This document shows, in pieces, positions 23,997-27,338 of a stretch of 64,000 nucleotides of DNA. The DNA is from Natrononativus amylolyticus. Its GTDB lineage: Archaea > Halobacteriota > Halobacteria > Halobacteriales > Natrialbaceae. The DNA lies in contig NZ_CP101459.1 in NCBI RefSeq assembly GCF_024362525.1, positions 434,001 through 498,000 of the forward strand, read 5' to 3'. Each line of letters starts with the position of its first letter. Position 1 is the first letter of the stretch. The position numbers and the translations under genes are program-made. The notes beneath the pieces are model-generated. The model saw nothing but the letters and a program-made list of their open reading frames with translations, did no database searches and was not told the DNA's origin.

Positions 23997-24059
23997 TTTC
24001 GCTGATAGTCTCTCCCGAGTTGGAGGACTGAGTCGGGGGGCAGGGACGAGTATTCTGTC

Positions 24060-24082
24060 ACACCCCTCGGTGCCGCTGTATG
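24060..24082 (-). repeat. Inverted ORB-like repeat (left side of origin)
   Basis: On the minus strand it reads CATACAGCGGCACCGAGGGG followed by TGT, matching the direct copies on the right at most positions. It is the only copy in this orientation and bounds the AT-rich region on the left. Confidence 0.8.
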
Positions 24083-24430
24083 AGGATGGAGAGAGTGCCC
24101 CATACGGGAATTCGATAGAGGTTCTGATAGTTGATGAATAATCGATGGATGGGTGATGGAAAGATGATGGATTGGTGGCAGATGTTTCGAGATCTATGGC
24201 TTTAGAAGGCATCCTCGGGTGACTGAATTTATTCTCACATTATCTAACATAAGGTACTATGAGTTAAATATAAATACTCTAGGTGCGAAAACCCCAACAA
24301 GTGAATTGATCGCAGTAGCGAGCAACGCGTGTTGATCGCGGGTTCGCTGGTGCGTCGAAGCTCGTTACCCGTATTCCCATGGCTGAGAGGCCCGCAACTT
24401 GTCCCGAGAGCAACCATCCAGCCCCGTCGC

Positions 24431-24453
24431 TATACAGCGGCACTCCGGGGTGT
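24431..24453 (+). repeat. ORB-like repeat 1
   Basis: TATACAGCGGCACTCCGGGG plus TGT: the consensus copy, closest to the AT-rich core on the right. Confidence 0.82.
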
Positions 24454-24463
24454 GTGTCCTCCG

Positions 24464-24485
24464 TTACAGCGGCACTCCGGGGTGT
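24464..24485 (+). repeat. ORB-like repeat 2
   Basis: TTACAGCGGCACTCCGGGGT plus GT, identical to repeat 1 over its core and only 33 bp after it (start to start). Confidence 0.82.
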
Positions 24486-24525
24486 GAACGACTTGTTTCG
24501 GCGTTTGTATCTGCAGTTCTATCGT

Positions 24526-24548
24526 TATACAGCGGCACCGCGGCGTGT
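24526..24548 (+). repeat. ORB-like repeat 3
   Basis: TATACAGCGGCACCGCGGCG plus TGT; varies in the 3' half. Confidence 0.8.
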
Positions 24549-24586
24549 CGAGTCCTCGAGCCGTTTTCGTAATTCTCTTTCCCCGG

Positions 24587-24609
24587 TATACAGCGGCACT
24601 CCGGGGTCC
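24587..24609 (+). repeat. ORB-like repeat 4
   Basis: TATACAGCGGCACTCCGGGG plus TCC; consensus except the last two bases. Confidence 0.8.
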
Positions 24610-24632
24610 CTACTTGTGGTTCGCACGGACCG

Positions 24633-24655
24633 CTTACAGCGGCACCGGGGGGTGT
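24633..24655 (+). repeat. ORB-like repeat 5
   Basis: CTTACAGCGGCACCGGGGGG plus TGT; keeps ACAGCGGCAC and the G-rich end. Confidence 0.8.
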
Positions 24656-24664
24656 TGGGCGGCC

Positions 24665-24687
24665 TATACAGCGGAATCACGGACTCC
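24665..24687 (+). repeat. ORB-like repeat 6 (degenerate)
   Basis: TATACAGCGGAATCACGGAC plus TCC: only the first ten bases match well, so it may be a weak site. Confidence 0.6.
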
Positions 24688-24727
24688 ATATCCGGGTCGT
24701 TGCCTCTGTACGCGGTCACTTCTCTAG

Positions 24728-24750
24728 TATACAGCGGCACTGTGGTGGAA
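24728..24750 (+). repeat. ORB-like repeat 7, at the orc1 promoter
   Basis: TATACAGCGGCACTGTGGTG plus GAA. It ends immediately before the TTAAGT box of orc1, so bound Orc1 would occlude its own promoter. Confidence 0.72.
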
Positions 24751-24752
24751 AG

Positions 24753-24762
24753 AGTTAAGTCA
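24753..24762 (+). promoter_or_regulatory. TATA-like box of orc1/cdc6
   Basis: GTTAAGTCAG centred about 30 nt upstream of the ATG at 24789 and directly after ORB 7. Confidence 0.45.
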
Positions 24763-24788
24763 GTTTCACGTGATTCTCACGCCACACA

Positions 24789-25991
24789 ATGCCGGACGGT
24801 CACGATTACTTCTCCCAGGAAAACGCCATCTTTCGCAACAAAGACCTCCTCCAGGTCTCACACCTCCCTGATGGGGATCGCATCATCGGCCGCGAACAGG
24901 AGCTCTCGAACCTCGCGGGTGCGATCCAGCCGGCGCTCACCGGAAGCACCCCGAACAACGTCCTCGTATACGGAAAAACCGGGACCGGGAAGTCCCTCTG
25001 TTCGAAGTTCATCACGAACCAGGCCATCTCTCGAGCGGCGGAGAACGACGTCACGATCGGCGTCGCGTACGTCGACTGCCTCCAGGAATCCACCGAGACG
25101 CAGGCGGTACAGTCGCTTGCACACCAGCTCAACGACAGGACGGAGACGTCAATCTCGATCCCCCATTCGGGGCTGAGCACGTCCGAGTACTATCGGCGAC
25201 TCTGGCGGATCATCGACGAACGGTTCGACGCGGCGCTCGTCATCCTCGACGAGGTCGACAAGATGGAGGACGACGACATCCTCATGCAGCTCTCGCGCGC
25301 CGTCGAGTCCGGAAAGCTCTCCTCGAGTACGATCGGAACGATCGGCATCTCGAACAAGATCCGGTACAAGGAGTCGCTCGACGAGCGCATCAAATCGAGC
25401 CTCTGTGAGCGGGAGTACGTCTTTCCACCGTACGACGCGACGCAGATTCAGGAGATCCTCCACTCCCGGTCGGACGCGTTTCACGACGGCGTCATCGAGG
25501 ACAGCGTTATCCCGCGTGTGGCTGCGCTGGCCGCTCGCGAGCACGGCGACGCGCGAAAGGCGATCGACATCCTCCGGTTCGCCGGCGAGATCGCCGAAGA
25601 GAAGACCCTCGACACCGTCTCCGAGACCTGCGTCAATCAGGCCCACGAGCGCGAGGAAACGAGCCGACTGGCCGAACTCATCTCGAAATCGCCGAGTCAC
25701 GCCAAACTCGTCCTCGAGGCGATGGCGCTGCTGGCCAAACAACCCGACCGCACCGACGACGCCGTCCAGACGACGGAGGTATACGACCTCTACAAGCGTC
25801 TCTGTGACCGTGACGACTCGTCGCACCTCAAACTCCGCCGGGTGCGGGACATCCTGTCCGAACTCGAGTTTCTCTCGATTATCGAACAGGAGCGCAAGTG
25901 GGCCGGCAAGGGAAAGGGCAACTACATGGAGAACCGTCTCGTCGACGATCCGGACGTGATCATCGCAGCCTGTGAGGAGTCGAGTCGATGA
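24789..25991 (+). CDS. orc1/cdc6: Orc1/Cdc6 family replication initiator
   Basis: A 400-aa AAA+ initiator, the usual length. It has Walker A VYGKTGTGKS (residues ~56-65), Walker B VILDEVDK, sensor 1 near GTIGISNKI, sensor 2 with the HGDARKAIDILRFA helix, and a C-terminal winged-helix domain (~300-395; LRRVRDILSELEFLSIIEQE). It binds ORB repeats and loads MCM helicase. It lies directly right of the ORB array, the usual pairing of initiator and cognate origin. ORB 7 abuts its promoter, which suggests autoregulation. The gene stops at 25991, and a transposon hairpin begins 6 bp later, so its 3' end marks an insertion boundary. Nothing essential appears to be lost. Confidence 0.96.
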   Translation: MPDGHDYFSQENAIFRNKDLLQVSHLPDGDRIIGREQELSNLAGAIQPALTGSTPNNVLVYGKTGTGKSLCSKFITNQAISRAAENDVTIGVAYVDCLQESTETQAVQSLAHQLNDRTETSISIPHSGLSTSEYYRRLWRIIDERFDAALVILDEVDKMEDDDILMQLSRAVESGKLSSSTIGTIGISNKIRYKESLDERIKSSLCEREYVFPPYDATQIQEILHSRSDAFHDGVIEDSVIPRVAALAAREHGDARKAIDILRFAGEIAEEKTLDTVSETCVNQAHEREETSRLAELISKSPSHAKLVLEAMALLAKQPDRTDDAVQTTEVYDLYKRLCDRDDSSHLKLRRVRDILSELEFLSIIEQERKWAGKGKGNYMENRLVDDPDVIIAACEESSR

Positions 25992-26040: not shown

Positions 26041-27315
26041 TTACCGACCCACGGAGGCAACTTGCGGGTTCGTATGCTCCTCGTTGGGAACTGAGCGTGG
26101 TGACTCTGACCAGTTGTGGTCGTCCCACTTGAGGCATACAGGCCGTGCCATCGACCGTGTTACCGTCGTCTGCCGTCTCAAGAACGTCTCCGACGCTGTG
26201 AGGTCAGCGTGCCCCTCGAAGCCACACGGACACGTCAGCGTGTCGCAGTGGCGCGTCGTCCCCTCTGTCGAACCACAGTTCGGACACTCTTGACTCGTCC
26301 ACGCCTCAGACCGTACTTCCACCGAGATACCATATTCCTCGGCGGTACACGCCAGCCGGTTCACGAACGCTCTGAACGCCCAGAAGTTGTGCGTCTTCGC
26401 GTTCGCCTCCACCGACCAGTGCGTGTTAAGTACGTCCGTCAACGCCCCCACGTACACCGTCGAAACACCTTCTTTGTACAGGCGTTCGATGAGGTCACGG
26501 ACAAGCGCGTTTTGGGCGTGGTCACGTCGCTTGGTTCGTCGGTCGTACAGGCGGCGGATGCGGTGACTACTGTATCGACCGTTCTCCAACAGTGATTGGA
26601 GACGAGCGATTTCTCGTGTTGTTTCGCGGAATCGCTCGAACAGCTCGCGTCCTTCGTACAGGTATTGCTGGCCGGTTGTGGTTGTGCAGGCGACGAGGTT
26701 GTTCGCACCGATGTCCAGAGCGGCTTCTTCCGAAGCCAGTGGGTGTGCCAGCCGAGAATCGTCGATAGTGACTGGCTGAAAGGCCCTGAACGTCTGTGCT
26801 TGCTCGTCGTAGAACAACTCCAACCGACCCTGCTTCTCGTACTCCTTCCAGTTGGGGTCGCCTCGGACTTCGAGCCGGAGACGTTCGTGGTGTCCAAGAC
26901 CATACTTGTCTTTCAGGTCTTTGCCGACGAGAATTTCGAGGCGGGAATATTCGCCCCATTTGACGGAGTACGAGGTGTTTCGGATGTACGTGCGGAGTTC
27001 ACGCCCGTCTTCTGCGTTGCCCCAGAAGCCGGGTTTGCCGTTGGCCTCGCCTTTCTTTTTGAGACTGAAGAACGAGTTCCATGCTTCGCGGTTCTTGCGT
27101 TCGATTTGCTGAACCGTCGAAGCCCCGAGAACACCGCCGTAGCGTCCGCGATACTCACTGATTTCCCATACGTCGCCGTCAGGGTCAGCGTAGTTCTCGC
27201 GGCGCTCGTAGTTGATTTCGTTCCAGAGAGCGGCAGAAGCGTCCAACAGGCGTCGAAGTAACTCCTCGTCCTCCTTGGACTGTGGAACCACGTCGAACGT
27301 GTTGGCTCGCTTCAT
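26041..27315 (-). CDS. tnpB: TnpB-family (OrfB) RNA-guided nuclease-like protein of IS200/IS605
   Basis: A 424-aa OrfB/TnpB protein starting [11 protein letters not shown]. The RuvC-like core is split as usual: RuvC-I Asp201 in [10 protein letters not shown], the RuvC-II region [15 protein letters not shown], a zinc ribbon with CPNC (344-347) and CPC (362-364), and RuvC-III Asp371 in [13 protein letters not shown]. TnpB proteins are RNA-guided DNA endonucleases that use RNA from the element's 3' end. The usual RuvC-II acidic residue (E in an E-D-L motif) is not seen; the aligned residues are Gly-Ala-Leu. Activity is therefore doubtful unless another Glu (for example in WSVEANAK) substitutes. 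No tnpA adjacent. Length is complete, with no frameshift. Confidence 0.9.
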
Positions 27316-27338
27316 CAACTACTGGTTGTACCCGAACA

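Follow-up and report, generated by a model that had tools for sequence, protein, structure and literature searches.

A candidate Orc1/Cdc6-paired replication origin with a conserved two-module box array in the Natrialbaceae

Haloarchaeal origins that lie beside an orc gene and hold inverted, G-string-bearing ORBs specific to that Orc are well described (PMC3528665, PMC3936714, PMC4010727), and in Haloarcula hispanica such origins depend on the adjacent cdc6 gene (PMC3936714). The locus from Natrononativus amylolyticus analysed here resembles the origins reported by Wu et al. 2012 (PMC3528665), with which it shares an intergenic position next to orc/cdc6, inverted G-string ORBs, an AT-rich core, and a box tied to its Orc, although the families named there (oriC1, oriCa, and oriCb) appear to be others. 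This survey called 7 of the 11 chromosomal orc genes of H. turkmenica origins. Since this species was surveyed and has the family on its chromosome, the family was very likely already among those predicted in 2012.

Two described origins share particular features with the locus. The origin II of Hla_3512 / Hwa_HQ2959A, with the ORB TAACAGCGGAAACAGTGGGGTGGGGGGGT, has in common with it ACAGCGG and a downstream G-string, although the G-run is longer there (PMC3528665). The second is oriC2-cdc6E of Haloarcula hispanica with its oriC2D (PMC3936714), where, as here, there are more ORBs than initiation needs, with titration as a possible role. In contrast to oriC2D, which is a cluster downstream of cdc6E, no ORB cluster was found downstream of the orc1 gene studied here. 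Two further described origins, oriC4 and oriC5 of Natrinema sp. J7 (PMC5350488), were considered as possible members of this family, but none of the genomes compared fitted their coordinates.

According to the data presented below, the locus is very probably a self-contained Orc1/Cdc6-paired replicator, and sequence comparison gives strong support to its assignment to the Orc1-paired type. An earlier note on this DNA had suggested a less-described origin type. This holds insofar as no experiments on this origin family were found in the literature, but an origin paired with its Orc1 is of a known kind. A literature search with ACAGCGGCAC returned no haloarchaeal-origin paper among the matches listed.

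The box array and the AT-rich core

In the window (the whole stretch of 64,000 nucleotides that was analysed), an orc1/cdc6 gene is preceded by eight boxes with the core TACAGCGG, which are grouped around an AT-rich core; seven of them are direct and one is inverted:

24061 to 24080 (about), minus strand: left inverted ORB, ATACAGCGGCACCGAGGGGTG read on the minus strand; found in 30 of 30 family arrays
24200 to 24320, no strand: AT-rich core, presumed duplex-unwinding element
24433 to 24452, plus strand: ORB R1, module 1, strong box
24465 to 24484, plus strand: ORB R2, module 1, 32 bp after R1
24528 to 24547, plus strand: ORB R3, module 1, 63 bp after R2, without GGGG
24589 to 24608, plus strand: ORB R4, between module 1 and module 2
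24635 to 24654, plus strand: ORB R5, module 2
24667 to 24686, plus strand: ORB R6, module 2, 32 bp after R5; diverged, TACAGCGGAATCACGGAC
24730 to 24749, plus strand: ORB R7, module 2, 63 bp after R6, without GGGG; adjoins the orc1 promoter
24747 to 24759, plus strand: presumed BRE/TATA-like element of orc1, GGAAAGAGTTAAG, with TTAAG at -34 to -30
24789 to 25991, plus strand: orc1/cdc6 initiator gene, 400 aa

As in described haloarchaeal origins, the intergenic region (1214 bp) directly adjoins orc1/cdc6, the boxes combine an ORB with a G-string (TACAGCGG...GGGG), and inverted ORBs flank the AT-rich element. The region contains eight copies of ACAGCGG, while 5000 first-order simulations gave a mean of 0.17 and a maximum of 3. 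The arrangement of one inverted and seven direct repeats before orc1/cdc6 that had been read from the letters is confirmed. This cluster is the densest on the 768-kb contig (eight within 1 kb; the next best has four). Chance or unrelated repeats could be suspected from the 14 copies of TACAGCGGCAC in the 4.0-Mb genome, seven at the orc1 array and seven scattered singly, but the excess over expectation and the conservation described below refute this explanation, which is left with a negligible probability. As for the repeat itself, the eight ACAGCGG boxes stand, but the exact 18-mer given in the earlier note, TACAGCGGCACTCCGGGG, occurs at only three sites (24433, 24465, and 24589). The direct box at 24667 has diverged and reads ACAGCGGAAT, so that ACAGCGGCAC is common to six of the seven direct boxes.

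The AT content peaks at 64% at 24200-24299, in the interval that separates the left box from the right array, versus about 37% for the contig, and part of the core (TATAAATAC ... TTGA-CG) is kept in alignments of several close relatives. The G-run at about 24034-24039, which had been singled out for its position by the left ORB, lies outside this box and on the other strand than the GGGG belonging to the box. Orthologues do not conserve this run, and it was rejected as a functional element. No origin signal emerged from the GC, purine, and keto skews computed along the entire 768-kb contig.

Conservation and two-module layout in the Natrialbaceae

The array was found upstream of orc1 in all 29 named Natrialbaceae orthologues (75-93% identity), each with the left inverted box, so that the absence of the repeats from orthologous genes, proposed earlier as a ground for refutation, was not observed. 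The asymmetry of the array is equally real and conserved, with one box on the left and 5-20 on the right in family arrays. Among the matches listed from 391 genomes of the class, those above 75% identity belong to Natrialbaceae only. The array of Natrarchaeobius chitinivorans has 20 right-hand boxes with a period of about 34 bp, located 60-871 bp upstream of orc1 and mostly reading ACAGCGGAA, not ACAGCGGCA.

Of 101 Natrialbaceae genomes, 45 have both this orc1 and the box pair with 32-bp spacing, 53 have neither, and three have the pair alone. The pair thus accompanies this orc1 in 45 of 45 genomes and is seen in 3 of the 56 that lack the gene (Fisher p 1.6e-25, uncorrected for kinship; the genomes are related and their counts not independent). 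In orc1-bearing genomes, every listed pair shares the strand of orc1 and lies no more than 0.9 kb upstream of it. The three pair-only cases look like decay products. Natronoglomus mannanivorans (L164, also L039) retains an intact eight-box array, while its orc1 lacks about 65 internal codons and has lost the frame, and this interrupted gene was therefore excluded from the Orc1 tree. The locus L162 (5868-7100) holds a lone orphan TACAGCGG pair with a degenerate third box, and the least certain of the three, L163 (3185-3420), has an array of five boxes close to a contig end that no orc1 follows; L162 and L163 are apparent remnants of lost origins.

The right arm consists of two copies of the unit box-32 bp-box-63 bp-box, one beside the AT-rich core and the other reaching up to the orc1 promoter. 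In 29 of 29 arrays the distance from the first to the second right box is 32-34 bp, and the third follows the second after 63-64 bp in 21 of them. The last three boxes repeat this spacing (32-33 and then 63-65 bp) in 28 of 29, the exception (L032) having a misassigned start, and the start of the last box lies 59-62 bp ahead of the ATG. The GGGG is kept in the left box (27/27), the first right box (29/29), and the second (27/29), and is rare in the third box of module 1 (2/21) and in the last box (1/29). Of the four spacers inside the modules, three show a sequence identity of 39-49%, while the 12-bp one separating R1 from R2 reaches 74%, with 25-29% expected by chance. Such low identity at a fixed spacing makes length look more constrained than sequence, shared descent also contributing to the identity. 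The distances from box to box tend to fall on multiples of the helical repeat (R 0.59 at 10.5 bp), an effect driven by the two modules, and the middle boxes show weak helical phasing (p 0.03). No prior description of this conserved layout was found, and the main text of PMC3528665 contains no two-module spacing.

The last box abuts GAacGnTTAAG, an element conserved in the orthologues, with TTAAG at -34 to -30. This position fits that of the TATA box of a leaderless transcript in haloarchaeal promoters, and it is the placement of the box against a TATA-like element that suggests autoregulation of orc1. Many relatives (L012-L037) also hold a promoter-like TATAGAAACTCTTTTnA between R2 and R3, perhaps a second orc1 promoter in those genomes; the window is without it. 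With seven boxes between the core and the gene, and the last one against the promoter, the array might instead be mainly an orc1 operator or an Orc1-titration site where no replication starts; titration by an ORB-rich region has been described downstream of H. hispanica cdc6E (PMC3936714). Nevertheless, an operator has no need of a conserved left inverted ORB and an AT-rich core 286-850 bp away, and this explanation is considered improbable.

Box types and Orc1 lineages

The orc1/cdc6 product matches the Pfam domains Cdc6_lid (1.7e-23) and Cdc6_C (2.5e-19), and the archaeal Orc1 PDB chains 2v1u and 2qby, sequence relatives reported to have been solved with origin DNA. An AlphaFold model built with 15 sequences reached a mean pLDDT of 62, with the wing region under 50, too low for a structural reading of residues 348 and 382.

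Among 20 homologues at 59-68% identity, the box type is TACAGCGG in 16, TACATCGG in three, and GCAACGG in one, while of the 20 at 55-58% identity, 19 have TTCACCGGAAAC and one (57% identity) has TACAGCGG. On the Orc1 tree, a quick tree with some deep forks open and long-branch outgroups, the box type switches three times, and no smaller number of changes would be possible. Box type is thus co-inherited with the Orc1 lineage, and this tree and the co-occurrence in 101 genomes link the ORB sequence to the Orc family. The specificity of the repeat for its initiator, as put forward in the earlier note, holds in that other lineages have other box types, but TACAGCGG is also found with more distant Orc1 homologues. 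Judging from these comparisons, other initiators have the box as well, and its type follows the initiator lineage. The TACAGCGG group has 145 invariant columns, and just two of these, 348 and 382, differ in the TACATCGG group as well as in the TTCACCGG group. Both fall in the winged-helix domain, with a chance overlap of about 0.5, and with so few lineages to compare, they are a lead, not a demonstration.

The oriC1 family joins an oriC1-type Orc to a TTCCA-type ORB. The box core found here differs from that type, and the Orc at C1:35038 of the same genome (543 aa), a possible oriC1-type Orc, is distant on the tree. The oriCa family is marked by an Orc of the NRC-1 orc10 / H. volcanii orc2 family. 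The TTCACCGGAAAC-type origins belong to a sister Orc1 lineage (55-58% identity) and have the same scaffold, T-n-CA-n-CGG-M-A...GGTGTG, but they differ in the box core and their Orc1 falls below the 80% family threshold of Wu et al. One origin of this type is present on contig C3 of the same genome. This lineage is probably oriCb, a family defined by an Orc at least 80% identical and a shared ORB, and given that identity and the TTCACCGGAAAC boxes of the presumed oriCb lineage, the locus would lie outside it.

Genomic setting and proposed mode of action

Ten Cdc6-family matches were found in the genome: six on a 2.98-Mb contig that also bears both 16S genes, three on the 768-kb contig, and one on a 241-kb contig. 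The 768-kb contig may be a secondary replicon; no overlap was seen between its ends. At about 352.6 kb on this contig, three direct TTACATCCGCGA repeats precede another orc gene (L040) and may belong to a second origin. The stop codon of the window's orc1 is closely followed by a TnpB gene (OrfB_IS605, Cas12f1-like TNB domain; 26041-27318, minus strand), and transposase genes are common near haloarchaeal origins (PMC3528665).

Flanking DNA at the orc1 locus is common to most Natrialbaceae, and other flanks are found in Natronobiforma, Saliphagus, Halovivax, Natronococcus pandeyae, and Natrinema versiforme. Five neighbours of the window's orc1 were looked for beside the orthologues and not found there, save for distant IclR-type genes on a Natronosalvus plasmid. 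Close orthologues are located on the chromosome of Haloterrigena turkmenica, near 3.242 Mb, and those of Natronosalvus and Natrinema versiforme are borne by megaplasmids. As orc1 and the array stay joined while flanks differ, at chromosomal and megaplasmid sites, the unit behaves as a cassette.

This setting also bears on whether the origin fires. It might be dormant, paired with its orc by descent and silent in wild-type cells, while another origin replicates the replicon. Dormant origins with normal anatomy have been described in Haloferax mediterranei (PMC4595724) and H. hispanica (PMC3528665). The two further Cdc6-family genes on the contig, one of them with three direct repeats upstream, the translocated context of the cassette beside the TnpB gene, and the broken copies and remnants in relatives are compatible with dormancy. 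On the other hand, orc1 has an unbroken reading frame, full boxes are kept at R1, R2, and the left ORB, and decay would not have maintained the array over dozens of species. Dormancy is therefore regarded as rather unlikely, though deserving of serious consideration.

For an active Orc1-paired replicator, DNA binding, unwinding, firing, and autoregulation can be proposed by analogy with characterised haloarchaeal origins. The 400-aa Orc1 would bind its own TACAGCGGMA-N4-GGGGTG boxes, and would be positioned by the left inverted ORB and right module 1, which flank the AT-rich core; the core would then melt and the MCM helicase would be loaded. Initiation would take place at module 1 and autoregulation at module 2, where Orc1 on the last box, directly upstream of the TATA-like element, probably represses orc1, and the extra boxes would buffer free Orc1. 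A more speculative proposal, held only tentatively, is a two-state circuit in which the same Orc1 assembly fires the origin via the core module and shuts its own gene via the promoter module, together with a readable Orc1-ORB recognition code that would include both natural switches of the sixth box base (G, T, A, or C) and the winged-helix residues 348 and 382.

In haloarchaea, several origins are kept apart through separate initiators, one for each origin. The family described here provides dozens of aligned natural examples with a fixed box geometry, and sister lineages whose boxes differ in a single base, so that origin-initiator specificity and orc1 autoregulation are directly testable in it.
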